A stretch of 45,077 nt of DNA, taken from the IMG/VR virus record IMGVR_UViG_3300025121_000079, positions 1 to 45,077 of that record; one strand, written 5' to 3'. Made by a program: the position numbers and the translations under genes. Shown piece after piece: positions 1,303 to 23,939 of this stretch; position 1 is the stretch's first letter; the number at the start of each line of letters is the position of its first letter. Under the pieces are notes generated by a model. It saw nothing but the letters and a program-made list of their open reading frames with translations, was not told the DNA's origin and ran no database searches. Source of the DNA: a virus.

Positions 1303-1312
1303 ATTCCCTCCT

Positions 1313-1513: not shown

Positions 1514-1520
1514 ATTCTTC

Positions 1521-3300: not shown

Positions 3301-3309
3301 GCTAACCTC

Positions 3310-3917: not shown

Positions 3918-3929
3918 TTTATTCCTCCT

Positions 3930-4112: not shown

Positions 4113-4117
4113 TTTCG

Positions 4118-5226: not shown

Positions 5227-5237
5227 TTTTACCTCCT

Positions 5238-9452: not shown

Positions 9453-9466
9453 GAAGGCCCCCTTTA

Positions 9467-10787: not shown

Positions 10788-10999
10788 TTATTCTCCTTTT
10801 GAATATGATGGTCAGGAGCAACCCTATCTCCCAAAAAGTTGTTATCCATTCTGTTGATAATATCTTCATTACTTTCTTGAACGAAAGGAACATTATCAGT
10901 AACCCATACTCCTTGCATAGTTTGTTCCTCTTTGGATTCCTCATATTCCCCACATCCTAACAACATAGGTATGACGATTAACAATGTTAATTTTTTCAT
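10784..10999 (-). CDS. small lipoprotein, 71 aa
   Basis: The N-terminus (MKKLTLLIVIPMLLGCGE) is a short signal peptide ending in a lipobox LLGC, with Cys16 as the predicted lipidated residue. The mature part is acidic and short. Phage lipoproteins act in the outer spanin role (Rz1) or as superinfection-exclusion factors; the early operon location favours the second, but this is inference. RBS GGGGGAGGGAAT. Confidence 0.8.
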   Translation of the reverse strand: MKKLTLLIVIPMLLGCGEYEESKEEQTMQGVWVTDNVPFVQESNEDIINRMDNNFLGDRVAPDHHIQKENK

Positions 11000-11562
11000 A
11001 TTCCCTCCCCCTTGAAATTCTTTTGTTCATGATAATGATCTATCACTGATTTGGCTTCCCCTAAAGCATTCTTTTCAGGATCTCCGTAGAATCCCCAGCA
11101 AGAATCTACGTGTTCCCCATCTTTTTCAATTACATACCCATAAATATTTCCTGTTAGATAGTTATCATATTCTTCTACTTCTGCTTTCAATTGTTTAAGT
11201 ACTTCATTAATTAATTTTTTGGTAATACGTTTAGCATTAAAATTCTTTTTAATATCTTCATATCTAACAAAGATATATCCTACTTGGCCAGAATCCCATG
11301 GGCAACTAAATCCGGTAGTATTCATAGTAATTCCAGAATGATCGTACAAGTAGAGTGGTAGGGAAAGTACGTCTTTTCTCTTGATCAAATCTTCTATTTC
11401 TTGAATACAATATCCGTGTCGATCTCCCAACTGATACTTACGATGCCAACAATACATGGCACCAAGATTGTCCCATTCCCGAGGGGAAGTAGGATTAACA
11501 TCTTGGTAAATTTGAATATCAAAACCTTTGTATTTCTCTTGATAAATAGAGTTATTTTTCAT
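10996..11562 (-). CDS. conserved phage protein with FSCPWDSGQVG motif, 188 aa
   Basis: The central motif (SLPLYLYDHSGITMNTTGF, then SCPWDSGQVGYIFV) is highly conserved in a phage family that I recognise by motif but that has no established function. The region after it is helical (KRITKKLINEVLKQLKAEVEEYDNY split) and a C-terminal WGFYGD segment follows. I choose the ATG at 11562, which overlaps the upstream gene by 11 bases; the frame is open to 11670 but that extension lies inside the upstream gene. The ribosome binding site is weak. Confidence 0.8.
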   Translation of the reverse strand: MKNNSIYQEKYKGFDIQIYQDVNPTSPREWDNLGAMYCWHRKYQLGDRHGYCIQEIEDLIKRKDVLSLPLYLYDHSGITMNTTGFSCPWDSGQVGYIFVRYEDIKKNFNAKRITKKLINEVLKQLKAEVEEYDNYLTGNIYGYVIEKDGEHVDSCWGFYGDPEKNALGEAKSVIDHYHEQKNFKGEGI

Positions 11563-11773
11563 TTCTTTTTTGCCCCCCAGTAGATTTTGATGTTGGTGAT
11601 ACCCAGGGGGTTGGAACCGTTTTACACCCACAGACCACGCATCGCTTCGGGTAAAATGGAACTGCTGCAAGGGATACTCCCATTGTTACACACGCCCCTA
11701 AGAACGTCCCCATTCCAACTATTCTCTTATGTCCGGTAACTTTTTCACAATTCTTGCAATATTCTTGTATCAT
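11552..11773 (-). CDS. membrane-anchored zinc-ribbon-like protein, 73 aa
   Basis: CKNC at 6-9 and CVVCGC near 45 flank a hydrophobic stretch (GTFLGACVTMGVSLAAVPF) long enough for one membrane span or a hydrophobic hairpin. The C-terminus is polar. Function unknown. Confidence 0.7.
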   Translation of the reverse strand: MIQEYCKNCEKVTGHKRIVGMGTFLGACVTMGVSLAAVPFYPKRCVVCGCKTVPTPWVSPTSKSTGGQKRNEK

Positions 11774-11961
11774 CTTTTCGCCGCCTTTCCTGTTACCTTC
11801 ATGGTGTATTTCTCCCCCACCCAGGTAACTTTGGTATCCAATCCCGATGAGAATCCTACGTGGTATCCTACGGAGAATGCTAACATAGCAAATAATAGGG
11901 CTACTGCTAATGTTCCTAAATAATCCATTAACTTGTTCAATATTTTCCAGAAAGTTTCCAT
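11770..11961 (-). CDS. small single-span membrane protein, 63 aa
   Basis: I place the start at 11961, after AAAGGAGAACCTA and sharing bases with the upstream stop (TAATG); a longer frame to 11994 lies in the upstream gene. One transmembrane segment (LGTLAVALLFAMLAFSVGY) is followed by a short basic tail. Function unknown. Confidence 0.78.
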   Translation of the reverse strand: METFWKILNKLMDYLGTLAVALLFAMLAFSVGYHVGFSSGLDTKVTWVGEKYTMKVTGKAAKR

Positions 11962-12287
11962 TAGGTTCTCCTTTTGATAGGATTTCTTTCCCAAATTATC
12001 ATTGATAATGCGAATTCTTCCATATCTATACCTTTGTGCTTATTCATTTCATAATTGAATTTGAATATTTTTTGCACTGTTTGAACCCTTCGCCCTTTCG
12101 CCCATTCTAATAATTCAGGAGAATCCATAATTGTTTTTCCTGATTTGGAGGTAACAAAGTGAAAGGGATAAAAATACCACTTACTTCCCAAATTTCCCGA
12201 GTGGTGCCATGCTTCCTTCGTAATTTTAAAGATGGGGCTTTCTGTTACATAGTCCCCATCAAAACTCATACAGATCAACTTTCTCAT
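11961..12287 (-). CDS. hypothetical protein, 108 aa
   Basis: Basic, aromatic-rich protein (SKWYFYPFHFVTS) with a helical C-terminus. RBS GGAGAAGGAGGTATC. No recognised domain. Confidence 0.75.
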   Translation of the reverse strand: MRKLICMSFDGDYVTESPIFKITKEAWHHSGNLGSKWYFYPFHFVTSKSGKTIMDSPELLEWAKGRRVQTVQKIFKFNYEMNKHKGIDMEEFALSMIIWERNPIKRRT

Positions 12288-12305
12288 GATACCTCCTTCT
12301 CCCCT

Positions 12306-12509
12306 TTACTTAGCAGGGTGTTTTGTTCCCTCAAAATCCATATGAATTACATTTAAATCGTGCCTATTACACCATACTTGAATTCCCTTTGCTGTCCATC
12401 CTGCTTGAGTTCGAGACCATTCCATTGGGGATACCCCATCGGGAATTTCCTCCAAGCACTTCTTACAATGAAGATATGCACCAATTTCATTCGGAATAAC
12501 TTTTTTCAT
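12306..12509 (-). CDS. hypothetical zinc-binding protein, 67 aa
   Basis: Start at 12509 chosen for AAAGGAGGGGAGAAC just before it. CKKC at about residues 15-18 plus a later WCNRH (C..H) could bind zinc. This C-x2-C ... IQVWC(N/H)RHxxNVxHxDF pattern recurs in small phage and bacterial proteins without a known role. Confidence 0.78.
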   Translation of the reverse strand: MKKVIPNEIGAYLHCKKCLEEIPDGVSPMEWSRTQAGWTAKGIQVWCNRHDLNVIHMDFEGTKHPAK

Positions 12510-12523
12510 GTTCTCCCCTCCTT

Positions 12524-12871
12524 TCATTTATGCCAGGCTATTTCACTATCTTCTTGAGTCATTCTCTTGCTTCCCTTCGGGAGTTTGTCTAAACCAAATG
12601 GGCAGGAAAGTTCTGGAACGTGTTCTTCTCCGTTGTATCGAAAGACGACCCAACACCCCCACATACCTATGGGTTTACGAACGAACGTATGGAGAATGGG
12701 GTGGGTTTTCCCACATTTGGAACATTTGAAGGGTTCCTCCCAATTTGCTCCAAATTTACAAGTTCCGTCAGTAGGAAACTCAATTTCCTTTCTACCTGGG
12801 ATTGTTTTATATACCTCAATATGTACCCCGCTCTTATCTACCTTTCCTCTGAACTGAAGTAGGGAACTCAT
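12524..12871 (-). CDS. hypothetical zinc-knuckle protein, 115 aa
   Basis: CSKCGKTHPILH in the middle is a zinc knuckle; the rest looks beta-rich. ATGA-coupled to the upstream gene; Shine-Dalgarno is GGTGGTATTGAT, modest. Function unknown. Confidence 0.75.
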   Translation of the reverse strand: MSSLLQFRGKVDKSGVHIEVYKTIPGRKEIEFPTDGTCKFGANWEEPFKCSKCGKTHPILHTFVRKPIGMWGCWVVFRYNGEEHVPELSCPFGLDKLPKGSKRMTQEDSEIAWHK

Positions 12872-13089
12872 ATCAATACCACCGTTTCTTCCCCATTTTC
12901 CGGGTCTTTTCCTTCCTCTGGAACGGTGAATTTATTATGATATTCTGACCACTCTACCTTGCAAGATTCTACTCCAAGAATTGATCCTGCTATAGTAGTT
13001 CTCCAGTAATCCCCTGAAGGATAAGCCATTCTCACGGGCAAATCTTCATCAAATTCTTCCAACTTCCTAATTAATTCTCTTACTGTCAT
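12868..13089 (-). CDS. conserved small phage protein (MTVRELI...FDEDLPV type), 73 aa
   Basis: The opening TVRELIRKLEEFDEDLPVR is a widespread pattern in small phage and bacterial proteins, followed by a beta segment that contains the expected GxxSxxxV-like turn. These proteins are uncharacterised. RBS AAGGAGGGTACG; ATGA-coupled on both sides. Confidence 0.85.
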   Translation of the reverse strand: MTVRELIRKLEEFDEDLPVRMAYPSGDYWRTTIAGSILGVESCKVEWSEYHNKFTVPEEGKDPENGEETVVLI

Positions 13090-13346
13090 CGTACCCTCCT
13101 TACCAACATAGTTGGCTTTGCAGGTTCCTCTTCAATTGGTTCAAATACGGCCCCAAGCTGCTCAGTTATCCAAAGCGGTTCTCTACTATTTTCATATAAC
13201 CATTTGTTAGTCATAAACGATTTCCCAGCAGAAAAAAGTAAATTAACTATTTTGAGCACTTCGTAATTTCCTTCGGGGAAATTGGCTATTGGTGGCGTAG
13301 TAACGCGACCAATTACCTTCAACCCAAAGTATTCTGCTGGTGTCAT
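13086..13346 (-). CDS. hypothetical protein, 86 aa
   Basis: Mixed alpha/beta protein without cysteine pairs; C-terminus KPTMLVRRVR basic. RBS GGAGATGTTGAATAA; ATGA-coupled on both sides. Function unknown. Confidence 0.75.
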   Translation of the reverse strand: MTPAEYFGLKVIGRVTTPPIANFPEGNYEVLKIVNLLFSAGKSFMTNKWLYENSREPLWITEQLGAVFEPIEEEPAKPTMLVRRVR

Positions 13347-13588
13347 TTATTCAACATCTCCTTCAATTTCTCTTGAACATATTCCAAATGCCCTCCACTT
13401 TCTGCTCCGTGCTCAATTCTACAATTCACTTCTGAGTAAATATCTCTGATAGATTGCCTTATAGACGATATTTGTTTTTCTGCGCTATCTAATACATCCT
13501 CCATGATCCCCATAACAGTAGAGGGACTATTGATTAATGCCTGAGCCGTCAATTTAAGAACTTCATCCTTGGCCATATCTACTTTCAT
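13343..13588 (-). CDS. hypothetical helical protein, 81 aa
   Basis: I choose the ATG at 13588: GAAGGATGAACAA precedes it and it makes an ATGA overlap with the upstream stop, as elsewhere in this operon, while the frame open to 13621 would overlap 37 bases. The product is almost entirely helical, possibly a coiled coil (QISSIRQSIRDIYSEVN). Confidence 0.75.
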   Translation of the reverse strand: MKVDMAKDEVLKLTAQALINSPSTVMGIMEDVLDSAEKQISSIRQSIRDIYSEVNCRIEHGAESGGHLEYVQEKLKEMLNK

Positions 13589-13836
13589 TTGTTCATCCTT
13601 CTCAGAAGTGGATTTAACCATTCCTTGTAAGGTTTCATTTTGACCTCAAACTTGGGATCGGTGAAATGTATACCATTACAATATTGACGATTACCATCTA
13701 AATGAGCACAAACTGTATACGTATCAAGTAGCCTTTTTGACCCAGGAATATCATATCCCTCCACTGATATAGGATACCCACACTTATGGCAAACCTTTAC
13801 TCCGATGACTCGGTCAACTATGTATTCTTTGCTCAT
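13585..13836 (-). CDS. zinc-binding protein, 83 aa
   Basis: Start at 13836 follows GGAGGTGGCGATATA and shares bases with the upstream stop (TAATG). CHKC at residues 16-19 with a later C..H and C at about 44-52 (CAHLDGNRQYC) gives a plausible zinc site. Function unknown. Confidence 0.75.
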   Translation of the reverse strand: MSKEYIVDRVIGVKVCHKCGYPISVEGYDIPGSKRLLDTYTVCAHLDGNRQYCNGIHFTDPKFEVKMKPYKEWLNPLLRRMNK

Positions 13837-14222
13837 TATATCGCCACCTCCATGATGGCCATGTAGCCGTTCATTTTTGTTGCCCAATATTCCTCCGCTT
13901 CCTCTCTGGTGGAAAATAGTTTGGCAGATCCGTCTTTATCACTAACCACAACGGCATCACTTCCGTTCAACTCAAACCAATTGACGATGATAAAGGTTCC
14001 TTTCTTAATGGTACTACCAGGATTTTGAAGTTCCTGATGATCTTTCTCACACAGAATGGCAATAATCCCTGATTCTGATTTATATAAATATCCAAAATTA
14101 TACTTTTCCCCTTCCCCCAATTCTATTTCGCATTGATCACAAAATATTTTCTCTTCTGGATTAAGCTCAAATTTTCCAATTAACATAAATTTGGTGAAAT
14201 TATCTCCTAATATATGTATCAT
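13836..14222 (-). CDS. hypothetical protein with zinc-ribbon-like N-terminus, 128 aa
   Basis: The start at 14222 has AAAGGAGGACGGGGA and an ATGA overlap; the open frame upstream to 14282 is within the preceding gene. CDQC appears near residue 28 with another Cys near 58. The C-terminal 60 residues (VSDKDGSAKLFSTREEAEEYW) form a beta-beta-alpha unit typical of small phage proteins. Function unknown. Confidence 0.78.
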   Translation of the reverse strand: MIHILGDNFTKFMLIGKFELNPEEKIFCDQCEIELGEGEKYNFGYLYKSESGIIAILCEKDHQELQNPGSTIKKGTFIIVNWFELNGSDAVVVSDKDGSAKLFSTREEAEEYWATKMNGYMAIMEVAI

Positions 14223-14509
14223 TCCCCGTCCTCCTTTATTGGGTGATCTCCTTGACATTCTACACAAAGTCCCCATGCCCAATACTTAGGAAATACCTCA
14301 TTGAATATAGATTTTCCGCAACAACCGCAATGACCCCATCCTTGAAGTTCATTTGGGGAGTAGAAAGGAAGATCGAATTTTTTGATAACAGATCGAACAA
14401 TGGTAATGAGTAATCCTTTTAATTTGGGGAAATTAATTTGGTCGTGGGAATTTAGAACGTAAGGACGTACAGCAAAGTTTTTTCTCGTCACAGTCTTGCT
14501 CTCGGTCAT
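14219..14509 (-). CDS. zinc-ribbon protein, 96 aa
   Basis: The C-terminal half has CGCCGK and CVEC, a four-cysteine ribbon. The N-terminal half is basic. RBS AAGGAGGGCGCG. Function unknown. Confidence 0.75.
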   Translation of the reverse strand: MTESKTVTRKNFAVRPYVLNSHDQINFPKLKGLLITIVRSVIKKFDLPFYSPNELQGWGHCGCCGKSIFNEVFPKYWAWGLCVECQGDHPIKEDGE

Positions 14510-14587
14510 CGCGCCCTCCTTGATGTTTGAAGCGTATTGCTTATCTACCTATCAATTTTGATTTCTCCTCCTTCCTTATTCAACAAT

Positions 14588-14782
14588 TCATACAGTTCTA
14601 ACTACTGTGATAGCCTTACAATCAGGAATAGTACTTACTTCATCAAATACGACATTCGACCCCAACTCTAAATCCATTATTTTATCCACTTCGCTACTTG
14701 AAAAGTCGGACAATCGAATGAGATCAAGTAAAGATAAGTCATCATTTTTATCAACACCATCCGTAATTGTAAATCTTCTCAT
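14588..14782 (-). CDS. hypothetical protein, 64 aa
   Basis: Start at 14782 chosen for the strong AAAGGAGGAAAA; the frame continues upstream to 14875 but only through a terminator hairpin. Acidic, with a DLSLLDLIRLSDFS helix region. Function unknown. A 78-base spacer without recognisable content separates it from the next gene downstream. Confidence 0.7.
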   Translation of the reverse strand: MRRFTITDGVDKNDDLSLLDLIRLSDFSSSEVDKIMDLELGSNVVFDEVSTIPDCKAITVVRTV

Positions 14783-14803
14783 TTTTCCTCCTTTCTTCAG
14801 AAA

Positions 14804-14878
14804 AGGGTGGCGGGGCCTGGGGTTAGTTATCCAGGTTTCGGGGTGGGCGTGATCTCCACCACAACACCCCGCCACCCT
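14804..14878 (-). terminator. intrinsic-type terminator after the 148-aa gene
   Basis: A perfect 12-bp inverted repeat (AGGGTGGCGGGG at 14804-14815 against CCCCGCCACCCT at 14867-14878) encloses a 51-base loop with further pairing potential. On the minus strand it is followed by TTTT. It lies between the strongly biased 148-aa gene and the next gene, so it probably reduces read-through. Confidence 0.7.
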
Positions 14879-14885
14879 ATCTAAA

Positions 14886-15332
14886 TTAGGCGACCTTTGT
14901 GAACTTGTCCCCGTCCTTGGTCATGTAACCCATCCCGACCAGGAACTGCACCGCGAACTGAGCCACCGCCTTGGCTTCCTTCGGGTTGTTGGCCTTCTCG
15001 CTGGCCTTCTTCGTGGCGTAGAGAGAGTTGGCTCCGTCCACGATCTCCACCATCGTCAGAGGAGCCGTCATCCCCTTGATGAATTCGGTGGTGGCGTCCG
15101 CACGGCTGTATCCCGGAGTCAGACCCGCAGCCTTGGCCGCAGCCTTGGCCGCCTTCTCCGCTTCACGAGCCGCCTTGATCTCATCCTTCAACTTCTTCTC
15201 CTGAGCCTTCAGTGCCGCGACCTGCGCTTTGATTTCTTCCTTCGTCATGATTTCGCCCTCCTTCGGGGTGGGTTCCTTGGTCCCTTGAACCAAGGTCAGG
15301 TTGGATTTCATTGAACGCTCTGCTTTCGCCAT
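14886..15332 (-). CDS. probable abundant DNA-binding-type protein, coiled coil plus small helical domain, 148 aa
   Basis: Start at 15332 follows GGAGGGAATGT; an upstream in-frame ATG at 15353 has a poorer context. Residues about 25-70 are a Lys/Glu/Ala-rich coiled coil (KAQEKKLKDEIKAAREAEK), then a linker, then a C-terminal domain of about 80 residues that ends in a wing-like hairpin (GYMTKDGDKFTKVA). Codons are strikingly C/G-ending compared with the AT-rich neighbours, as in the capsid gene, which fits very high expression. It is a clear paralogue of the rightward 134-aa protein at 22607. A role as nucleoid-like or regulatory DNA-binding protein is inference. Confidence 0.85.
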   Translation of the reverse strand: MAKAERSMKSNLTLVQGTKEPTPKEGEIMTKEEIKAQVAALKAQEKKLKDEIKAAREAEKAAKAAAKAAGLTPGYSRADATTEFIKGMTAPLTMVEIVDGANSLYATKKASEKANNPKEAKAVAQFAVQFLVGMGYMTKDGDKFTKVA

Positions 15333-15353
15333 ACATTCCCTCCGTTCAAACAT

Positions 15354-15575
15354 TTAATTTGTTTTGGGAATGCTCTGTCCCGGATCTAAAGTCATGAATT
15401 TGGCTCCGGGGAAATCCCTTTCGTACCAATACATCTTTCCGATAAGACAGATTTCATTTCCCTGAGTATGAATCACCCGATACTTCCTACCTCCTTTCGG
15501 CATACCGATGATCCGGTGCGCTCCCTTGATATCCTCTACTTCCTTGGGAAATGCCTTCTTTGTCGTAGTTCCCAT
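15354..15575 (-). CDS. hypothetical protein, 73 aa
   Basis: Small basic protein, beta-rich, with a YRVIHTQGNEICLIGK segment. RBS GGAAAGGAGGAAAA. It precedes the abundant 148-aa protein and may share its transcript. Function unknown. Confidence 0.75.
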   Translation of the reverse strand: MGTTTKKAFPKEVEDIKGAHRIIGMPKGGRKYRVIHTQGNEICLIGKMYWYERDFPGAKFMTLDPGQSIPKTN

Positions 15576-15702
15576 TTTTCCTCCTTTCCAGTTAGATGTT
15601 CGCTCCTTAACTACTACTACAGGAAAACGATCAACTTCACCTTTTTAATTTTCTCACCTCCCCTCTCCAAGATTGGCTCGTATTACACTTTCATCCTTCT
15701 TA

Positions 15703-15885
15703 CTAATCTACCAACGGACTTTCAAACCATACGTGCCGAACCCCATGAAAGGTCCTCGGCTTTGGTAGAATAACCACTAAATCATGATTAGGGGATTCAT
15801 CTTCCGGCTGGAATTGAATCTTTACGGAGATACTTGTTTGATCTTGTCCGGCTAATGTAGCTGATACGATTTTGGTATAATTCAT
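15703..15885 (-). CDS. hypothetical beta-rich protein, 60 aa
   Basis: Start at 15885 chosen for GGGAAAGGAGTGGAA and the ATGA overlap; the frame is open to 15927. Strand-rich sequence (KIVSATLAG, ISVKIQFQPE, HDLVVILPK). Function unknown. The 127 bases downstream (15576-15702) hold no convincing gene. Confidence 0.72.
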   Translation of the reverse strand: MNYTKIVSATLAGQDQTSISVKIQFQPEDESPNHDLVVILPKPRTFHGVRHVWFESPLVD

Positions 15886-16070
15886 TTCCACTCCTTTCCC
15901 GTTATGCTTTTTATTTCTTCTAAACAAAACCTTTTCTCCTCATTATTTATTGCCCAAGATAATTCTCTGTATACGTGACTTAAAATATCCCAAGCACTTG
16001 AATCTTTTTTCAAATTTTGGATAGCCTCTTGAATCTTTTCTTTTATCTCTTGGTTTTGTTTTTCGGTCAT
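15882..16070 (-). CDS. hypothetical helical protein, 62 aa
   Basis: Predominantly helical, charged (KQNQEIKEKIQEAIQNLKK start). No recognised motif; weak Shine-Dalgarno. The C-terminal SITGKEWK is basic. Confidence 0.7.
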   Translation of the reverse strand: MTEKQNQEIKEKIQEAIQNLKKDSSAWDILSHVYRELSWAINNEEKRFCLEEIKSITGKEWK

Positions 16071-16092
16071 TTATTAATTTCCTCACTTTTCA

Positions 16093-16464
16093 TTAAAAAT
16101 TCACTTTTGCCCCAATTGCCGTGTTATGTACCACAAAATTGATTTCTACTCCGATAGTAACAATTTGCCAGATTCTTCGGTAAGGATTAGGAAGTAATCT
16201 TGTTATGATAGTATTACCTATCAAACTCCCCAAAAAGTAAGCATCTACACGATCTTTGCTAGGATGTTCCGATAACATAGGATTCTTTTCATAAAAATCC
16301 TTCGGATTGTCTATGGCATTACGAGTTTGTCTCCAATCCAAAATAATAGTAGTAGCCGCAACTCCTTGAAATGCCCAATCTGTCTTGGACATAGGTTCGG
16401 CATTTGCCGGTACGGAAATGAAAGTAGCCAATAAAATAGCAGGTATAGTTTTTTTCAGTTTCAT
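16093..16464 (-). CDS. exported or membrane protein with signal peptide, 123 aa
   Basis: An N-terminal signal peptide (KLKKTIPAILLATFISVPANA, cleavage after ANA) leads a mature domain with TDWAFQG, DWRQTRNAI and NPMLSEHPS followed by two hydrophobic segments. This D..QT...NP.L..HPS layout is common in unnamed bacterial and phage membrane proteins. Envelope location is likely; function unknown. RBS AAAGGAATAAA. Confidence 0.82.
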   Translation of the reverse strand: MKLKKTIPAILLATFISVPANAEPMSKTDWAFQGVAATTIILDWRQTRNAIDNPKDFYEKNPMLSEHPSKDRVDAYFLGSLIGNTIITRLLPNPYRRIWQIVTIGVEINFVVHNTAIGAKVNF

Positions 16465-16474
16465 TTTATTCCTT

Positions 16475-16861
16475 TCAGTTTATAGTTGGGAACACTCTAG
16501 CCCAATTGATCGTACCAGAAATCCCAAATCTCTCGATAGCCATAGGGTAACTTTCCAAATGTAATTGTAACCGGCCATTCTCTCGCACAAGTACGAATAA
16601 GAAGAAATCACAACTTTCGTACCCATGAAAACAAAACCTTCCCCTTCTCCTTGGACCTCGGGAGTGTGTCGATTTATGCCACTCTTTCGTCGCTTTGACC
16701 TCTACCTTGGTCCCGTCCCGTAGGATCAAATCAGCCCCGTCCTCGTTTAAAACAGGGGTACTTCCGAAACAGGCTTCGAGGTAGGAATATACCTCTGGGG
16801 CCTGTTCGGTCCAATGCTCGTACCTACTTGGTCGATACGAACGATGAGGAGTTTCCATATT
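16475..16861 (-). CDS. small PD-(D/E)XK nuclease-like protein, 128 aa
   Basis: The start at 16861 follows AAAGGAGGCAAAT; the open frame further upstream to 17245 crosses two other genes and is not coding. The segment GADLILRDGTKVEVKATKEW has the D...(D/E)xK spacing of PD-(D/E)XK nucleases, with a following beta-strand rich region (CFHGYESCDFFLFVLV) similar to the core of such folds. The family is so divergent that a restriction-like, repair or Holliday-junction role, or a non-enzymatic role, cannot be told apart. GC content is higher than in neighbouring early genes. Confidence 0.8.
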   Translation of the reverse strand, partial: NMETPHRSYRPSRYEHWTEQAPEVYSYLEACFGSTPVLNEDGADLILRDGTKVEVKATKEWHKSTHSRGPRRRGRFCFHGYESCDFFLFVLVRENGRLQLHLESYPMAIERFGISGTINWARVFPTIN

Positions 16862-16875
16862 TGCCTCCTTTATGA

Positions 16876-17085
16876 TTACCTCCCCACCCCAATGGACTCC
16901 GTTTTCATCCACAGGGAGTAACCGGGGATGGTCATCTTGGGCATCGCCATATCGACCAAGGGACGCTTGATCGTAAAAACTTTGCGGATCAATTTGTATC
17001 TGACGCTCCCGTTCTCCGGGGTGGGCGTTTCGTCCTCTTTCAGTTCGACCATCTTGACTACCTTCACCATCTTGAACTTTCCCAT
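16876..17085 (-). CDS. hypothetical basic protein, 69 aa
   Basis: Strong RBS (AGGAGGTAGAAG). Basic, Val/Lys-rich start (KFKMVKVVKMVELK), then a PTPENG turn. Function unknown. Confidence 0.75.
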   Translation of the reverse strand: MGKFKMVKVVKMVELKEDETPTPENGSVRYKLIRKVFTIKRPLVDMAMPKMTIPGYSLWMKTESIGVGR

Positions 17086-17103
17086 CTTCTACCTCCTTTT
17101 GGG

Positions 17104-17784
17104 TTAACGTTCGTTGGGACCCATCGCCTCTTGAATTCCCTCGGAGAGTTGGGCTTTCCTCTCCGCGTTGATGGCTTTGTAATCGTATCCCGGATTTTTC
17201 GTATCCATGTAGTGAAGCAGCCACAGGAAGGGATTTGTCTCCCATTTCTTCAAAAACTCTCCTACGATTTCCATCCTTTCCAAAGTGCGAATGAATCCCT
17301 CCCTTGTATCTACGGAAGTTCCCAAAAATCTAGAATGACCCGTACCTCCCCCATTAATACGAAGGGAATACCTATTTGGTTCTTGCCCTTCATATACTAA
17401 CCAGTTGAAATACGCCGTGGAACTATTTACTTGGTTTACAAAAGTATCAAATTTCACTAGAATTGATTTCTTTTTGTTCCAGAAGAAATACAAATACTCC
17501 TGAACAGGTTCATCCTCGTACCCCCTCCCCATAAATGGGATCGTAAGAACTTTTTCAAACCCATTCATGATTAAAATAGCACTGAACTCTCCGATTTCCA
17601 TTCCATAGTAGGTATCATTGAATTCTTTGAGAAGTTTTCTTTTATGTTTATTAACATTCAAAGCGATTAACATACCAAGACCGACGGTTTTCTCATCATT
17701 ATGAGAATCTTTTTTAGAAATTTTCTCCGCCATATCCAGAGGATCGGCAGCAAGCAATTCGTCTAACAAGTCTCTATCGTCCAT
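17104..17784 (-). CDS. hypothetical protein, 226 aa
   Basis: An acidic N-terminal region (DRDLLDELLAADPLDMAEKI) precedes a longer mixed alpha/beta domain with a central hydrophobic strand set (YLYFFWNKKKSILVKF) and a GGGTGHSRF loop. The layout resembles unnamed phage regulatory or replication-accessory proteins. RBS GAGGAGAGAAAGGA. No family assigned. Confidence 0.8.
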   Translation of the reverse strand: MDDRDLLDELLAADPLDMAEKISKKDSHNDEKTVGLGMLIALNVNKHKRKLLKEFNDTYYGMEIGEFSAILIMNGFEKVLTIPFMGRGYEDEPVQEYLYFFWNKKKSILVKFDTFVNQVNSSTAYFNWLVYEGQEPNRYSLRINGGGTGHSRFLGTSVDTREGFIRTLERMEIVGEFLKKWETNPFLWLLHYMDTKNPGYDYKAINAERKAQLSEGIQEAMGPNER

Positions 17785-17799
17785 TCCTTTCTCTCCTCG

Positions 17800-17991
17800 T
17801 TAAATGTTCGCTCCTACAGGATCTTCTCCATTTCCATAATACCGATCAATCCAAGTCGATTTCGGCTTCTGAGGATGACATGTGGTTCCATACACTCTAC
17901 CTCGGCCATAGTACCGAACAGGGGTACCAACTTCCAGATACGCTTTACATTCCTTACAAAAGGCCGGAAACTTCAACCGGATTTTCACCAT
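17800..17991 (-). CDS. small zinc-binding protein, 63 aa
   Basis: Start at 17991 chosen for GGGAGGAAAGCA. A CKEC pair and a later CHPQ provide a metal site; the middle (YYGRGRVYGTTC) is a beta hairpin. Similar 'CRxCgxxIxxGxxVRYYGRGRVYGxxCH' proteins are common in phages and probably bind DNA or protein; function unproven. Confidence 0.8.
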   Translation of the reverse strand: MVKIRLKFPAFCKECKAYLEVGTPVRYYGRGRVYGTTCHPQKPKSTWIDRYYGNGEDPVGANI

Positions 17992-18154
17992 TGCTTTCCT
18001 CCCCTGTGGATTTGATGAACAGGATAGCATTATGAAATTGCTTCAGAAATCTTTTTGCTTGCTTGGAATTCATCTTTGGGGATCGGACATTGGTAAATAT
18101 TACAAATCTCCCCTTGGTAAATCGGTTGAGGATGACTTCTTGAGTGCTATTCAT
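17954..18154 (-). CDS. hypothetical basic protein, 66 aa
   Basis: Overlaps the downstream gene by 38 bases. A GAGGGAG motif lies about 11 bases before the ATG. Basic, with a KQAKRFLKQFHNAILF helix. The overlap and spacing make it less certain than its neighbours. Confidence 0.6.
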   Translation of the reverse strand: MNSTQEVILNRFTKGRFVIFTNVRSPKMNSKQAKRFLKQFHNAILFIKSTGEESNGENPVEVSGLL

Positions 18155-18303
18155 TTTACTTTTTTCTCCCTCTTTTCAATTCTGGCAACCTTGGCCAAAA
18201 GTTGCTTCACCACTCCAGGCTGCTTGTTAGAACGAGCAATCCTTATCTGATCTCCTAATTCAGTAAGCACCCTTGCATTTTTCTCCCTCAAAGTTTCTTC
18301 CAT
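18151..18303 (-). CDS. hypothetical basic protein, 50 aa
   Basis: The ATG at 18303 follows AAGGGAGGTAAGGTG; the open frame to 18402 lies in the preceding gene. Helical and basic (KVARIEKREKKVK end). Function unknown. Confidence 0.65.
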   Translation of the reverse strand: MEETLREKNARVLTELGDQIRIARSNKQPGVVKQLLAKVARIEKREKKVK

Positions 18304-18307
18304 CACC

Positions 18308-18517
18308 TTACCTCCCTTTTTCTTTTGGTAATTCCGTCTTCCCAGTGATATGATAATAAAGAAGAAAATCAAACGCTTCCCTTTGAAGGTTGAACGTACC
18401 AATAATCCGATCCGTTTCCCATACCTGGGGAGCGTTGGGGAAGAGTTGCCTCATCTCCCCCTCCGCTATCACCCAGGGTTTGTGGACACGGGAACCTTCA
18501 TATTTGATTTTGATCAT
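18308..18517 (-). CDS. hypothetical protein, 69 aa
   Basis: Start at 18517 (GGAGGAAACGGG before it, ATGA overlap with the upstream gene). The frame continues upstream to 18766 through other genes and is not used. Contains a TGKTELPKEKGR C-terminus and a central IIGTFNLQREAFDFLLYY segment. Function unknown. Confidence 0.7.
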   Translation of the reverse strand: MIKIKYEGSRVHKPWVIAEGEMRQLFPNAPQVWETDRIIGTFNLQREAFDFLLYYHITGKTELPKEKGR

Positions 18518-18684
18518 CCCGTTTCCTCCATCAACGGAGGACACGGTTGGAGCAGATTCTCGATGCATTGGGGGCAAGTCTTGGTATCGTCCCCCAACTC
18601 CGCGATGTAACACTTCCGGCATTCCACGCACCGTTTGATTTTCCCTTCTTCCTTGCTCTTGTGGGAAATCTTCTTGTAACCCAT
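18514..18684 (-). CDS. zinc-ribbon protein, 56 aa
   Basis: An ATG at 18684 with GGAG seven bases upstream is the best start. CVECRKC and CPQC form a zinc ribbon. ATGA-coupled downstream. Function unknown. Confidence 0.7.
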   Translation of the reverse strand: MGYKKISHKSKEEGKIKRCVECRKCYIAELGDDTKTCPQCIENLLQPCPPLMEETG

Positions 18685-18716
18685 CTCCATTCTCCTTTCT
18701 TTCTCTTGGGGCCTCT

Positions 18717-18833
18717 TTACGAGACCAAGTTGTAAGGGAGCGTGAACAACCAACCGCTCTCCTCAACGACTGCGTACCACATTCCGTACCTACGATTCCA
18801 AAACTTGAGGATGACGTTAAATTTCGTTTTCAT
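18717..18833 (-). CDS. hypothetical aromatic-rich small protein, 38 aa
   Basis: The ATG at 18833 follows GGGGGTGAGCCAA. A short beta-rich product (KTKFNVILKFWNRRYGMWY); an open frame upstream to 19004 overlaps another gene. Real but small and uncertain. Confidence 0.6.
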   Translation of the reverse strand: MKTKFNVILKFWNRRYGMWYAVVEESGWLFTLPYNLVS

Positions 18834-18846
18834 TTGGCTCACCCCC

Positions 18847-19062
18847 TTACTTTTGGAAAGATTCCAAAATCTTTCTCGCCTCTTCCCCCAAACGGAAATT
18901 CTCTTGGATAATTTGAAGACATTTGTCACAAGTCGGACTCTTGGAAAATTGAGGGGTTGAAAATCTCTTACCACAAGTCGCCTTGAACGTCTTTTGATTC
19001 TCAACGGCGAATGGGATCACTTCCTTGAAAACTTTAAATGTTTCTGAGAAATGAGTATCCAT
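18847..19062 (-). CDS. small zinc-binding protein, 71 aa
   Basis: ATG at 19062 after AAGGAGATCAGA. A CGKRFSTPQFSKSPTCDKC segment holds three cysteines near a possible zinc site; the C-terminal half is helical. Function unknown. Confidence 0.72.
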   Translation of the reverse strand: MDTHFSETFKVFKEVIPFAVENQKTFKATCGKRFSTPQFSKSPTCDKCLQIIQENFRLGEEARKILESFQK

Positions 19063-19072
19063 TCTGATCTCC

Positions 19073-19249
19073 TTAATCCCGGTCAGCGTATTTTGCTGCC
19101 CAACGTGCCCAACCGTCACGGTGTTTCCTCTCTTCCCTTGGGGAACGTTCGCGTATGATTCTGTTCCCCTCTGCCGATACCTCATGGTGGCAGGTCCTAC
19201 CCTGGGACCCCTCTTGTTTGCGAATCCTACGCAATTCTCCCTTGGTCAT
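19073..19249 (-). CDS. hypothetical basic protein, 58 aa
   Basis: ATG at 19249 after AAGGAGAAGGGAA, ATGA-coupled to the upstream gene. Arg/Lys-rich and highly charged with a C-terminal RDGWARWAAKYADRD; it may bind nucleic acid, but nothing in it proves this. Confidence 0.7.
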   Translation of the reverse strand: MTKGELRRIRKQEGSQGRTCHHEVSAEGNRIIRERSPREERKHRDGWARWAAKYADRD

Positions 19250-19542
19250 TTCCCTTCTCCTTGGTCCTTGTCTTTTTCGATCCGATTCTCCAACGAATGA
19301 TATTCTTCGTAAACTTTCCAATACAACTCGGTGGTCCACCAATTTCCCTTTTCATCTTGGGGCTGGAAAAGCCCCGCTTTGGAAAGAACGTAGAGAACTT
19401 CATTCACATCCTCTAAACCGAACAGAGGCTTTTCCACGCAATCTTGAAATACTTCGGGGATAAAGTCCATTTCTACGTCGCTTTCTTCGTAGGAATCGTG
19501 AAAGATAATTCCTATGATCTGATCTACTTTTTTCTTATCCAT
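19246..19542 (-). CDS. hypothetical acidic protein, 98 aa
   Basis: Acidic, with helical segments; begins KKKVDQIIGIIFHDSYEE. RBS GGGGGTGAAATAAA. Function unknown. Confidence 0.75.
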   Translation of the reverse strand: MDKKKVDQIIGIIFHDSYEESDVEMDFIPEVFQDCVEKPLFGLEDVNEVLYVLSKAGLFQPQDEKGNWWTTELYWKVYEEYHSLENRIEKDKDQGEGK

Positions 19543-19573
19543 TTTATTTCACCCCCTTTCATTTATGACGTAT

Positions 19574-19702
19574 CTACCTACCTACCTGCAACCATCGTTC
19601 CGGTAGAGGTTCCCTTTTGGAAAAGAAACCCCTCGTCGCAAAGATGGTTATATTTAATCTTCCGTCCATCCCATCTCCCCGGTTCCGGGCCACACCGTTC
19701 AT
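19574..19702 (-). CDS. possible small gene, reading frame uncertain, 42 aa
   Basis: The ATG at 19702 follows GAAAGGAGAA and overlaps the upstream stop as ATGA, so translation initiation here is likely. The product of this frame is Arg-rich and looks unlike a protein, whereas the +2 frame in the same stretch reads more naturally (KIKYNHLCDEGFLFQKG), suggesting a frameshift near the start or a sequence error. Confidence 0.4.
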   Translation of the reverse strand: MNGVARNRGDGMDGRLNITIFATRGFFSKREPLPERWLQVGR

Positions 19703-20091
19703 TTCTCCTTTCTTTCTTCCTCCAATGGAGTTATTTCCGGTTCCCCATTTTCTTCGGCTTTACTTCCTTCCAAATTGTAAAGATTAGTAACTACCGAATC
19801 CAAATTACTTTTCGCCGTAGTCGATCCATTACTACTTAGTCCTAACGATGTATGGCAATGAGAAGGTCCACATCTGGATTGGCGTCGAATCGCGCTTGAT
19901 ACCGATTTGGACGGGGATTTTACGATCTCCGTCCAATAATTCGTTTTCCCCAAACTAGCCGTAAATCCCATCGTCTTTACTACATCCTCTTTTCTTGGTT
20001 CGCAATCTCCACAAACTCTAAACTTCCTCCCGATATGTTTGGGATGTTTATCGCTAAATTCGCTTCCACATTCTTTACAAATGATTAACAT
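19699..20091 (-). CDS. zinc-ribbon protein, 130 aa
   Basis: N-terminal CKEC (5-8) and CGDC near residue 27 form a zinc ribbon; the rest is low-complexity, Ser-rich and then acidic (SKAEENGEPEITPLEEE), so probably disordered. Function unknown. ATGA-coupled to the downstream small frame. Confidence 0.75.
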   Translation of the reverse strand: MLIICKECGSEFSDKHPKHIGRKFRVCGDCEPRKEDVVKTMGFTASLGKTNYWTEIVKSPSKSVSSAIRRQSRCGPSHCHTSLGLSSNGSTTAKSNLDSVVTNLYNLEGSKAEENGEPEITPLEEERKEK

Positions 20092-20107
20092 TTTGGTTCC
20101 CTTTTTC

Positions 20108-20524
20108 CTATCGGGTTAAAGAACCAAGAATAACTTCTCCTAAATAACCATGGTAATCGCCCTCGGAATCTTTTTCCGTTCCGACGAAAAACCATACATC
20201 TCCCTCCGGGGAAAAGGAGTAGGATTCATTTTCGTCCCCTTCGTCCTCCTTAAAACCCTTTATTTCGAGAACGATAACGAGATCATTACGACTTTCGGCC
20301 CATTCCGGATTTAAGTCCCCGCGAAGAACATTTCGAAGGTTAACGGCGTAGTCCACTGCGATTTCCGCCGAGGAAAAAGTCCCTACCATAAAATTTTTAT
20401 TACCATTATAAAGATTTACGGAGAAAACGGAATTGAAATGCTTTCGTTCGTTTAGGAAATCTACCAAATCCGTTTCGGAGTTTTCTTTCTTTTCAAAATT
20501 AACTTTTACTTTTACTTTTTCCAT
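20108..20524 (-). CDS. hypothetical acidic protein, 138 aa
   Basis: ATG at 20524 follows GGAGGGGAATGAG; the frame continues to 20578. Begins with a Lys/Val strand (EKVKVKVNFEKKE), with alpha/beta sequence and a strongly acidic middle (KEDEGDENES). Glutamine is absent, an early sign of the CA/TG depletion that deepens to the right. Function unknown. Confidence 0.78.
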   Translation of the reverse strand: MEKVKVKVNFEKKENSETDLVDFLNERKHFNSVFSVNLYNGNKNFMVGTFSSAEIAVDYAVNLRNVLRGDLNPEWAESRNDLVIVLEIKGFKEDEGDENESYSFSPEGDVWFFVGTEKDSEGDYHGYLGEVILGSLTR

Positions 20525-20571
20525 CTCATTCCCCTCCGTTTTAGTATGAACCAAAAGTTTTTTTTCTCCCC

Positions 20572-20766
20572 TTAACATTGATAGCAGATTCCGTTCGCGT
20601 CCAATTCGGCCTTCCGTTTACATTTGGGGCAAAAAGAGTATTCGATACCTACCTCGCCATTCTCTCGGGAATCCTCCCCGGATTCCAGTTTCTCCTCTAA
20701 CTCGCGGATTTTCATTTCTAATTCTTCGATTTCCATTTGGAGCGTTTTACTTTTCGGTGGTTCCAT
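20572..20766 (-). CDS. coiled coil plus zinc-ribbon protein, 64 aa
   Basis: ATG at 20766 chosen after AGAGGAAAAAGAAA. Residues about 10-34 form a Glu/Leu coiled coil; the C-terminus carries CPKC and CYQC (zinc ribbon). It would overlap the upstream gene by 20 bases. Function unknown. Confidence 0.68.
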   Translation of the reverse strand: MEPPKSKTLQMEIEELEMKIRELEEKLESGEDSRENGEVGIEYSFCPKCKRKAELDANGICYQC

Positions 20767-20902
20767 TTTCTTTTTCCTCTTTTTTGATTCCACAGCGAAG
20801 GATAAAACTTTCGAAATCAGACGAAGGATTTTCTACGGAATAAATCAGTTTTCCGTTCCGGTAAAAACTGAATTTTTCTCCTACTTTCCGGTACGTTTCC
20901 AT
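20747..20902 (-). CDS. hypothetical protein, 51 aa
   Basis: ATG at 20902 follows AAAGGGGAAGGGAA. Short basic/acidic product with a strand pair (KFSFYRNGKLIYSV). Overlaps the next gene by 20 bases. No family. Confidence 0.65.
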   Translation of the reverse strand: METYRKVGEKFSFYRNGKLIYSVENPSSDFESFILRCGIKKEEKENGTTEK

Positions 20903-20927
20903 TTCCCTTCCCCTTTATTTTATTTTG

Positions 20928-21329
20928 TTAGACTCCGTACTTTCTAATATAATTGATATCAAAAACCGTTCCTTTCCCTCCTCGTTCCTCTTCGAAACCA
21001 TTCTTTCTAAGTTCGGCCCTCGTTGGAAAGGAATAAAAACCGTCGAGGTAATGTAAACAACTTTCTTCGGTAGAAAGACTTTTGGTTAAGGAATAAACCG
21101 ATTCCCCCACAAAAAACTCGAAAATTACTACGGAATCGGGGTAACTCGTAAAACGATGGACTCCGTTTATCGTCCCGGAATAAATGGAAGCGTTACCGGA
21201 AGAAACTAATATTCTACCATAAAAACCGCCTTTCTTTTCTTCCAAAAAGTATCCGGCTCTAATACCTTTCCATTTACTTCGGTCTACTTCTAACTTTTCC
21301 AATCTTTCCTTAAGAGTTCTTTTATTCAT
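20928..21329 (-). CDS. hypothetical protein, 133 aa
   Basis: Starts after GGGAGAAGGAA. A basic N-terminal helix (KRTLKERLEKLEVDR) is followed by a beta-rich domain with aromatic strands (SVVIFEFFVGESVYSL). It lacks Gln and has only one Met, one Trp and one Cys, in line with the local CA/TG scarcity. Function unknown. Confidence 0.78.
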   Translation of the reverse strand: MNKRTLKERLEKLEVDRSKWKGIRAGYFLEEKKGGFYGRILVSSGNASIYSGTINGVHRFTSYPDSVVIFEFFVGESVYSLTKSLSTEESCLHYLDGFYSFPTRAELRKNGFEEERGGKGTVFDINYIRKYGV

Positions 21330-21347
21330 TTCCTTCTCCCTTTCGTC

Positions 21348-21431
21348 CTAAAGGACGAAGATTAGAATTACGAACATCCAGAAAGCTCCGGCGATTAAAA
21401 CCATCGTTCCGATCTCTTTCGCGGTTTCCAT
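21348..21431 (-). CDS. tiny single-span membrane protein, 27 aa
   Basis: The ATG at 21431 has an excellent RBS (AAAGGAGAAGAAA). The product is METAKEIGT followed by one hydrophobic stretch (MVLIAGAFWMFVILIFVL). It is the first gene of the leftward operon. Its stop codon lies inside a 7-bp inverted repeat (TTCGTCC/GGACGAA, 21342-21359). A leader peptide or a small membrane effector are both possible. Confidence 0.6.
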   Translation of the reverse strand: METAKEIGTMVLIAGAFWMFVILIFVL

Positions 21432-21440
21432 TTTCTTCTC

Positions 21441-21481
21441 CTTTCCCCCCGGAATTTGGTTTAAAGAGAAACCGGGGAAAG
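21441..21481 (-). promoter_or_regulatory. leader hairpin before the leftward operon
   Basis: CTTTCCCCCCGG (21441-21452) and CCGGGGAAAG (21472-21481) are inverted repeats flanking a 19-base loop. In the leftward transcript this stem ends directly before the Shine-Dalgarno of the 27-aa gene, so it could affect translation initiation. A second GC-rich hairpin (CGCCCG/CGGGCG, 21487-21506) lies just upstream. Confidence 0.45.
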
Positions 21482-21520
21482 TTGGTCGCCCGATCCCGTC
21501 CGGGCGGATATATCGGGGAT

Positions 21521-21526
21521 ATTATA
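21521..21526 (-). promoter_or_regulatory. candidate leftward promoter, -10 TATAAT
   Basis: A perfect TATAAT on the minus strand about 95 bases before the 27-aa gene. No TTGACA-type -35 box is possible in this CA/TG-poor DNA; the expected position reads TAATAC. A second TATAAT lies 25 bases upstream. Assignment is tentative. Confidence 0.4.
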
Positions 21527-22082
21527 CCCTAAAACCGAAACGTGTATTATATAGTTTATAAGTATCGGATTTATAAGGGGATTTTCTAATCTATATACCC
21601 TATAAACTTAGGGTTCCTTTATAACCTATCGAATATAAACGGTTTTTCGTCGCGGCTTTTATCGTTATAAGTACCCGAAATATAAGGGGAAAATATCGAA
21701 TTATTTCGGCCAGAAACGTTCGTTATAGGGTACCTTGGGCGTTACCTACCTAAAACGTACTTGGTCCAGACCTATCTAAGCGTACTTGGCTGTATACCTA
21801 TATTTTTTTCGTTTTGGTTGGAAATTTTTCGAAAATTATTAGTAAAGGTTACCGTTTCGTAATCGTTTTATAAGGTAAAATGTTTCGATAGGTAATACGA
21901 TATTTTATAGAATAAAACGAATAATAGGAAAAATTATCGGCCTAATTTTGTTTATAAGGCATTTTCTTTCTTCGGTAATAGGATATACGGGATATTTATA
22001 AGTAGGCGAAAAATAACGATTTCCCCGCGTTCTATTTTAAAAGATCGTCGTTTATAGGTCGATTAAATACGGCGAAAAACCG

Positions 22083-22346
22083 TTTATTATCGAATAGTTA
22101 TAGAGAAAAATAAAGTATATAAACGAATAAGGATATAGATTAGATAAAATATCCCTTATAATTCGGGTAGTTATAGGGTATAGATAAACGGAAACGAATA
22201 TATAGGACGGAACGAATAGCCCTTTATTATTAAGTAGTTATAAAGTAGCCCTAAGACTATCTACCGGATAGAGTATTATTTCCCTTTTATTATCGAATAG
22301 TTATAAGCGATTCTAATTCCCCTTTATAATTAAATAGATACGAGGG
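22083..22346. repeat. five imperfect iteron-like repeats
   Basis: Five copies of a 20-26 base element related to TTTATTATCGAATAGTTATA lie at about 22083, 22153, 22220, 22283 and 22319, with centre spacings of about 72, 68, 63 and 37. The first and fourth share 20 identical bases (22083-22102 and 22286-22305). Several copies end in CCCT...AGGG arms that make them weak inverted repeats. Iterons like these often bind replication initiators or regulators. Confidence 0.55.
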
Positions 22347-22579
22347 AAGAAAAACGAAAATATATTTTCTATCCGAAAAGGGAAATTCTATAAATATCCG
22401 AATCTATTACCGTTTCGGGAATAGGTATAAACGGGGTACCAGTTTAATATTTCCCTTTCGTTTTTAATTCTTTTCCGGTATCGTATAGGTAGATAAAAAA
22501 CGTTCCTTTAAATCCGATTATAAAGGCGCCCCCGAATTAGAACCGGACGGAATCCCTTACCGTACCGGAACCGTTAAAA

Positions 22580-22592
22580 GGGGAATTACCCC
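22580..22592. promoter_or_regulatory. short palindrome before the 134-aa gene
   Basis: GGGGAATTACCCC is an interrupted palindrome 15 bases before the ATG at 22607, in the position of an operator or RBS-blocking stem. A TATAAA-like -10 (22529-22534) lies upstream. Confidence 0.35.
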
Positions 22593-22606
22593 GGAAAGGT
22601 TAGAAA

Positions 22607-23011
22607 ATGAAAACCGAAAAAAGTAAGGCGGAATTAATCGCCGAATTAAACGATCTCCGTTCCGCTATCGACGCGAAGAAAGCGGAGCGAAAGAGTCTCG
22701 CGGAGAAGGAAAAGACTCTCCGCGAATCCGCGAAAAACGCCGGGATCGTACTTTCGGAAACCTTTACCCGTTCCGAATCCGTAGCGGTCGCGGTTTCTTC
22801 CCTCTCGAACGGCGAACCGTTCTCCCTCTCGGGAATCGCGGAAAAGGCGAATCGGATATTTATCGAAAGGGGAAAGAAGAATAACGGGAAGGAGTCCGAA
22901 ACCGTTTCCCGTCTTCTTCTTCCGTTCGCGGTATCGATCGGACTCGTAGAGAAAACCGGAAAGGACTCTTACCGGTTCGTTAGTCCGGTCGCGGGAAGGA
23001 AAGTAGCGTAA
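22607..23011 (+). CDS. paralogue of the 148-aa protein, coiled coil plus small C-terminal domain, 134 aa
   Basis: The only rightward gene in the control region. An N-terminal coiled coil (about residues 5-50) leads to a C-terminal domain that aligns with the C-terminal domain of the leftward gene at 14886 (AN...K...A..FAV..G...K.G..YRFV pattern). Apart from its ATG, the 405-base reading frame contains no TG and no CA, so the protein has no Gln, His, Cys, Trp or second Met. It lies next to the iteron-like repeats and ends in a strong terminator, so a role as DNA-binding regulator or replication factor is plausible but unproven. The Shine-Dalgarno is weak (GAAAGGTTAGAAA). Confidence 0.8.
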   Translation: MKTEKSKAELIAELNDLRSAIDAKKAERKSLAEKEKTLRESAKNAGIVLSETFTRSESVAVAVSSLSNGEPFSLSGIAEKANRIFIERGKKNNGKESETVSRLLLPFAVSIGLVEKTGKDSYRFVSPVAGRKVA

Positions 23012-23033
23012 AGAAAATTCGAGAGTAAGACGA

Positions 23034-23067
23034 ACCCTCCGGACCGAAAATCCGGAGGGTTTTTTTA
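23034..23067 (+). terminator. intrinsic terminator of the 134-aa gene
   Basis: A 10-bp perfect stem (ACCCTCCGGA at 23034-23043 with TCCGGAGGGT at 23051-23060), a 7-base loop and an 8-T run. It ends the CA/TG-free transcript. Confidence 0.9.
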
Positions 23068-23139
23068 TTTCCGAAAATAAAAGTAAAACTGTTATTAGAT
23101 TGATCCCGTAATCAAACAAAAAAAGTAGAAAATAAGACA

Positions 23140-23345: not shown

Positions 23346-23939
23346 CATACGGGATATCCCTATACTGTAAGGTAATTATTACAGATTTCCCGATAACAAT
23401 CGTCAATCTCATTCCCCAAATATCCTCTCAGATTGATCAGTGTCATATCTAACTGAACGGGATATGGGAGATGGTGAAATAAGTCAACTGAATCAATCCT
23501 CGTTATCATATGATATGGATATACTACTGGTATGGGGATAGGGGGGAGAAAATCCCCCAATGGTCGATACCCTTTCCCTCTCCCCACCTTCTGAAATTTC
23601 TATTCACTTTGAAATTTTAGTTTTATATTATGATATCATTTCCTATATCTTACCCCATTTACCCCCACCTTCTGAAATTTATCTCCATTTTCAAATTTTA
23701 ATTTTCCTTTTACCCCACTCTTATAGCCAATTTACCAATATCAAGACGATAATATGATTACTATCGACTAAATTACTTTTCAGATACCATTTTCATAATT
23801 TTTTTAACTTCTCCCCTTCTCTGCGGGGGATTTCTATGGTTATGATATGATTTCAAGAAAAGAAGATTGATTCTAATGGCTTATTATCGGGTTCAATTAG
23901 AAAGGGCATAGTTTCCCCTATTCCGGTTAACTAAATTGA

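Follow-up and report, generated by a model that had tools for sequence, protein, structure and literature searches.

A phage genome region almost free of CA and TG dinucleotides, possibly the genome end that is first to enter the host

The locus and its genes

Within the 45,077 nucleotides of phage DNA analysed here (the window; IMG/VR record IMGVR_UViG_3300025121_000079), a rightward gene for a 134-amino-acid protein, preceded by an array of 26-bp repeats and followed by an intrinsic terminator, lies next to a leftward cluster of small genes (Table 1). In this phage from groundwater and in two relatives, about 1.1 kb of the locus is almost devoid of the dinucleotides CA and TG, with a depletion that weakens over 3-4.5 kb to one side. 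This core includes both coding and non-coding DNA. The central YR step of the repeats is CG or TA, with CA or TG in no copy, and in all three phages the first CA or TG is found about 20-25 nt past the terminator hairpin of the 134-amino-acid gene. No Rfam match was obtained within the window. Just to the right of the edge of the zone, a G-rich conserved element is followed by tandem repeats of the type CCCACCTTYTGAAATTT...TTTCAAATTTTAATTTT (23529-23720 of the window; 6786-7000 of contig L017), which are possible packaging or promoter sites.

The 134-amino-acid protein has no match in Pfam or PHROG, and a fold search returned nothing below an E value of 0.001, its matches being mostly generic winged helices. 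With its predicted coiled coil and winged helix the protein possibly binds the 26-bp repeats. It contains no Gln, His, Cys or Trp, and its sole Met is the start. A paralogue of ordinary composition, encoded elsewhere in the window, serves as an internal control: it has 8 Met, 5 Gln and 1 Cys, and its gene holds 58 CA/TG in 468 bp versus 1 in the 405 bp of the core gene. From this contrast and from the residues missing in the core protein it follows that the constraint acts on the DNA and overrides the protein sequence, in line with the original prediction that selection on protein could not explain the pattern.

Table 1. Positions of the features at and around the CA/TG-poor locus, in window coordinates
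Feature	Position	Strand	Basis and remarks
Left arm poor in the palindromes AGCT and CTAG	1..23090	.	Graded over about 20-25 kb, stops near the CA/TG edge
ArdC-type anti-restriction protein (ArdcN + MPTase-PolyVal), left arm	6201..7055	-	Domain matches
Paralogue of the 134-aa protein, internal control	14886..15353	-	CA/TG count
Graded zone, DCA/TGH avoidance fading leftward, CCA/TGG spared	19600..21961	.	Trinucleotide, codon and 500-bp-bin counts
Other leftward ORFs in the graded zone (19699-20091, 20108-20578, 20572-20793)	19699..20793	-	ORF list, codon counts
133-aa ORF of the leftward small-gene cluster, within the graded zone	20928..21329	-	ORF list
Short, conserved ORF resembling a membrane peptide (METAKEIGTMVLIAGAFWMFVILIFVL), at the head of the leftward unit	21348..21431	-	Sequence; kept in L005 and L006
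Reverse-orientation copies of the 26-bp repeat	21554..21688	-	Copies at 21554 and 21663
CA/TG-poor core zone	21962..23089	.	2 occurrences, start codon included; counted by script
26-bp repeat array, consensus CCCTTATATATCGGGTAGTTATAGGG	22080..22308	+	Copies at 22080, 22153, about 22220 and 22283
134-aa protein gene	22607..23011	+	N-terminal coiled coil and winged-helix fold; AlphaFold2 mean pLDDT 83.6
Intrinsic terminator, hairpin and T run	23033..23066	+	Folded hairpins
127-nt overlap at which the assembly of another sample is split into two contigs	23440..23566	.	Weakly indicated candidate for the neighbourhood of a physical end

Extent and conservation of the core

Counted by script, the core has a single CA, at 22440, and a single TG, at 22608 within the ATG at 22607, before TG resumes at 23090. 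This agrees with the original count, made by eye, and with the sharp stop that had been placed near 23090, and the same edge is present in the relatives. The symmetric CA/TG odds ratio is 0.01 in the core versus 0.86 in the whole window, and CG and TA are abundant, as had been remarked, with odds ratios of 2.23 and 1.15. A first-order Markov model trained on the remaining genome gives a CA/TG-free run of this kind a probability of about 1e-63. The zone has no second copy in the genome, and the depletion does not extend across most of the genome: in the roughly 115 kb assembled for this phage, CA/TG-free runs outside the zone are at most 66 bp long. CT/AG was considered as a second avoided step; it is low against a simple exclusion model, but the raw proportions of the bases following C in the non-coding core are close to the control, and CT/AG is not counted here among the avoided steps.

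An assembly error is excluded because an independent contig (IMGVR_UViG_3300025030_000080) is identical across 12607-23566 and because diverged relatives carry the zone. These relatives, to which the original prediction had pointed as a check, are species B (L004/L005) and species C (L006), with 134-amino-acid proteins 72% and 51% identical to that of the phage analysed here (species A). Their equivalent zones (5660-6616 of L005; 3919-5004 of L006) have the same position, the same sharp right edge and a left gradient of the same length scale. We know of no description of a kilobase with a near-total loss of one dinucleotide step that is conserved between species and costs protein residues. A segment of unusual genomic signature that was acquired recently, or an accident of composition, would have a dinucleotide profile unlike that of the remaining genome, as this zone has, but the smooth gradient, the syntenic conservation in three species and an absence that is total rather than a bias make such an explanation very hard to believe. 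Just left of the species B core, a stretch of about 200 bp that is rich in TG and poor in CA (L005:5455-5660, L004:1-256), and is not present in the window, breaks the zone poor in CA/TG; it may have been inserted recently.

The leftward gradient and its sequence preference

To the left of the core, a partial and graded depletion had been described from the letters alone; by script there are 19 CA/TG in 21001-21500 and 12 in 21501-22000, and the depletion reaches further than had been noted, to about 19.5 kb. Relative to expectation, the graded zone has 0.42 of the DCA/TGH and 0.95 of the CCA/TGG, so that CCA/TGG is hardly affected there. The proportion DCA/(DCA+DCG) in species A, taken leftward in 500-bp bins, runs 0.01, 0.00, 0.06, 0.09, 0.23, 0.24, 0.29, 0.44, 0.51 and 0.67, the genome-wide value being 0.66; species B and C follow a similar course, and CCA recovers earlier. 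The same preference is found at synonymous positions, where ACA codons make up 3% versus 27% in control genes, GCA 9% versus 30%, TCA 6% versus 20% and CCA 24% versus 29%, and of 24 TTG codons, 21 have G as the next base. A required DNA shape, one of three causes offered in the original prediction, does not account for this gradient, which runs through four unrelated genes.

AGCT and CTAG avoidance up to the same edge

Two palindromes, AGCT and CTAG, both typical restriction targets, are also scarce on the left of the edge. When tetranucleotides were tested against a second-order model, the core and graded part of the three phages together held 3 CTAG versus 26.2 expected and 2 AGCT versus 11.4, and the next 20 kb to the left held 7 AGCT versus 33.5 (p 2e-6) and 12 CTAG versus 38 (p 3e-5), which makes these the two most depleted of the 136 tetranucleotide classes there, relative to the remaining genome. 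The palindrome effect was found after inspection, although neither these 20 kb, which played no part in its discovery, nor the step scan described below draws on the CA/TG zone. The combined AGCT/CTAG ratio is about 0.5 at 23-28 kb from the edge, 0.14 at 3 kb and 0.87-1.02 immediately to the right, and in the step scan, which did not have the edge as input, the strongest step falls at 23.7-23.9 kb (0.21 on the left, 0.89 on the right). Under synonymous-codon shuffling AGCT occurs 4 times versus 27 expected and CTAG 8 times versus 20. Left of the edge, species C (L006) has 0 CTAG for 13.5 expected and 2 AGCT for 7.8, and species B near the edge (G003) has 4 CTAG for 13.3 and 2 AGCT for 11.9. 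In the long arm of species B the effect is weaker (42 for 80 expected at 3.5-23 kb, against a ratio of about 0.8 far away; AGCT ranks second and CTAG eighth of the 136 classes), and the avoidance is weak beyond 7 kb. Among 5-6 bp motifs in the left arm there is no clear further target, GGNCC and GANTC being slightly low.

The core may be a promoter or origin region, a role that leaves the depletion in coding sequences unexplained. We consider it unlikely that a replication origin or divergent early-promoter region here functionally requires the absence of CA/TG, be it to keep priming sites from the origin, to exclude sigma-70 -35 boxes and NTG starts, or for reasons of DNA mechanics. The iteron-like 26-bp repeats in both orientations, the adjoining winged-helix protein gene, the conservation of the non-coding DNA (82% identical in species A and B) and a GC skew that flips sign at the zone would all suit such a region, but the skew change coincides with gene orientation too, genes running leftward on the left of the zone and rightward on its right. 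Direct repeats and a skew switch are present, and the gene for the putative initiator lies some 45 kb away. In addition, a diffuse requirement ought to allow single CA/TG steps, the depletion runs on through the 134-amino-acid gene and then as a gradient through its neighbours, and the AGCT/CTAG avoidance over 20 kb is not accounted for.

Substitutions in the core

An exchange between CG and TA takes two transitions, and its sole short path passes through CA or TG, so that the number of such exchanges bears on how CA/TG was lost. Simulation at the observed divergence of 20%, in which coding constraint is ignored, predicts 0.1 CG<->TA exchanges under lethality of CA/TG and 18-25 under its hypermutability by transitions; 6 are seen when species A and B are aligned. 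Transitions and transversions number 95 and 95 in the core (a ratio of 1.0) and 349 and 260 in control genes (1.34), and at a control-like mutation ratio the lethal model gives a ratio of 1.10 and the hypermutable model 1.43. Strict lethality is rejected by the 6 exchanges, and selection is therefore not absolute. Purging by selection that is strong yet not absolute fits the substitutions better than hypermutation; the evidence for this is moderate, given the small counts and a simulation that takes no account of coding constraint.

A local mutational process, another of the causes first offered, would turn CA/TG into CG and TA by transitions, most strongly near the edge. It would suit the excess of CG and TA over simple exclusion (for CG 2.23 versus 1.60 expected), the alternation of CG and TA at the YR step of the repeats and an exchange count above that of strict lethality. 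However, the exchanges are too few and the transition to transversion ratio too low for pure transition hypermutation, which is disfavoured; the core evolves no faster than other regions, its non-coding part no faster than structural genes; and the AGCT/CTAG avoidance is left unexplained. To our knowledge no process alters both C to T and A to G at CA, and we rate this explanation as improbable.

Genome organisation

Two contigs of sample 3300025030 (76,087 and 38,837 bp) join into 114.8 kb, and by synteny with contigs of the second species (G003, G008, G013 and G015) the map closes at about 133 kb, circular as assembled. Multiple contigs cross the edge at 23.1 kb, so that at least some of the population has the left and right sides linked; terminal repeats are found on none of these contigs. 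The places where contigs break, at 23440-23566 and in G008, hint weakly at an end and may be assembly-graph effects, the 127-nt overlap at the former resembling the k-mer overlap of an assembler. No close phage isolate was found for the zone, its proteins or the genome, the best isolate terminase matches being 26-35% identical, and scans of genome contigs for a host gave no match.

The left arm opens with about 45 small ORFs, including the ArdC-type gene, of a kind typical of conjugative leading regions, and continues with a replisome comprising PolA fused to UDG, a clamp, a clamp loader, a gp32-like protein, a helicase, a primase and a UvsX-like recombinase. On the other side of the edge, the right arm has rightward-oriented genes for terminase, portal/head and capsid proteins. 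The DNA polymerase A with an N-terminal uracil-DNA glycosylase domain (L013:7420-11031, -), found in the same phage as ThyX, is reminiscent of the SPO1 polymerase. The terminase large subunit has 917 amino acids (window 36015-38768) versus 591 in relatives, and the portal/head protein 1081 (window 39552-42797) versus 702; as the terminase insertion matches a LAGLIDADG homing endonuclease, both insertions are probably inteins, and in this phage PolA, the clamp loader and one radical SAM protein match intein domains as well. The genes at 29025-33635 of the window have a markedly higher GC content (about 50%), partly with a CG/TA usage unusual for the phage; glycosyltransferases lie directly upstream, and 30193-32019 contains an fn3-like domain. 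In species B a PAPS-reductase-domain protein (L064:15373-16203, -) adjoins the putative replication initiator, the gene of this phage at that place having no match.

A proposed first-entering end cleared of defence targets

Of the three causes first offered, avoidance of a target is the best supported, by the sharp edge with its gradient to one side only, by the AGCT and CTAG avoidance bounded there and by the residues that the protein has lost. We propose, with about an even chance of being right, that this zone forms the genome's leading end, the first to enter the cell, and has been purged of targets of host defence. The edge near 23090 would be at or close to a physical genome end and the left arm would enter first, so that the DNA to the left of the edge would meet host defence before any phage protein exists. 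Each copy of a target exposed there would cost the phage, and the cost would drop with distance as later DNA enters and anti-defence genes are expressed. Selection would then have removed TGH/DCA, and near the end also TGG/CCA, fully within 1.1 kb and less and less up to about 4 kb, and the rarer 4-bp targets AGCT and CTAG across about 20-25 kb. If selection per site falls with distance in this way, the differing length scales follow, as a target expected every 8 bp could be cleared only under the strongest selection and one expected every 300-500 bp over tens of kilobases.

The depletion, its shape, its conservation, the order of preference and the edge common with AGCT/CTAG are read directly from the letters; that the left arm enters first, and that a defence recognises CA/TG, AGCT and CTAG, motifs depleted in the arm and not elsewhere, are inferences. 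One-sided gradients of several short targets from a single sharp edge match DNA entry from that edge. By the usual rule the end packaged last leaves first, and the gene order suits a left arm that is packaged last and injected first, since packaging that starts from the edge and proceeds through the terminase and head genes would end there. The arm content, with its small ORFs and anti-restriction gene, has been given above. The further proposal, that a 2-3 bp target (TGH, more weakly TGG) was cleared from the first-injected end and reveals a widespread host defence of that specificity, active in the first kilobases of entry, is to us somewhat less probable than not. Such a defence might be a nuclease of very low specificity or a CRISPR system whose PAM is of the TG type. 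Against this, restriction targets are usually much longer than a dinucleotide, and CRISPR targeting normally requires a matching spacer too. No defence with a TG/CA-type target was found, the host scans of genome contigs being empty. If the zone is indeed first-injected DNA, its gradient would measure the duration of exposure to defence at each point along the entering genome, the sequence by itself would reveal genome ends and the direction of entry, and a defence whose target is extremely short would be indicated; the paralogue and the graded neighbour genes make this reading directly testable.

Comparison with known systems

The known model is the first-step-transfer DNA of T5, likewise an arm that enters first, with small pre-early genes, from which targets present later are missing; the insensitivity of T5 to restriction rests on sites located outside this DNA. 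In T5, whose terminal repeat is annotated as entering first, the EcoRI site GAATTC occurs 0 times in the first 30 kb and 3 times in 30-50 kb, and 4-bp palindromes stand at 0.83 of expectation in the terminal repeat versus 0.95-0.98 outside. Unlike the present phage, T5 has no CA/TG depletion and its avoided sites are 6 bp long; here the target is a dinucleotide, and the end is deduced where that of T5 is mapped. No CA/TG-depleted end was found in T5, T7 or SPO1.

PAM depletion has been documented in phages of CRISPR-bearing hosts (PMC4246573) and likewise implies that a very short motif is selected against in either strand, but as an underrepresentation over whole phage genomes, whereas here it is near total and in one place. 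TG-type PAMs exist for the type V-C and V-D effectors Cas12c and Cas12d (PMC7889808), which recognise the TG that is avoided here; the preference for avoiding TGH over TGG is not accounted for by them, and neither such a system nor a host was found here. Avoidance of restriction targets by plasmids is reported (PMC10359461). Plasmids and the leading regions of conjugative elements resemble this arm in target avoidance and in the ArdC-type gene, and differ in that this is a phage arm with a main target of 2-3 bp.

A segment that must stay unmodified could also lack TG if the phage modified T (or G) in a TG context, in the style of hypermodified thymidine. Phages M6, ViI and phiW-14 carry modified T mainly in TG and TC, their enzymes singling out this T, and the 5hmdU DNA kinase of M6 modifies TG (PMC6449724); the phage studied here encodes the UDG-PolA fusion and several radical SAM proteins. 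However, M6, ViI and phiW-14 have no CA/TG-free zone, and no 5hmdU DNA kinase or pyrophosphorylase homologue was found in this phage, a small part of whose genome is known only from the related species. Its thymidylate synthase is ThyX and not a hydroxymethylase. With neither a 5hmdU DNA kinase nor a dUMP hydroxymethylase found in that search, the hypermodified-thymidine hypothesis was rejected, and we see only a slim chance that modification accounts for the zone.

A separate observation concerns a 672-amino-acid protein (L015:6357-8375, -; phrog_1735, with no function assigned), which is strongly shared with Salmonella phage ViI (Vi01_128/129).
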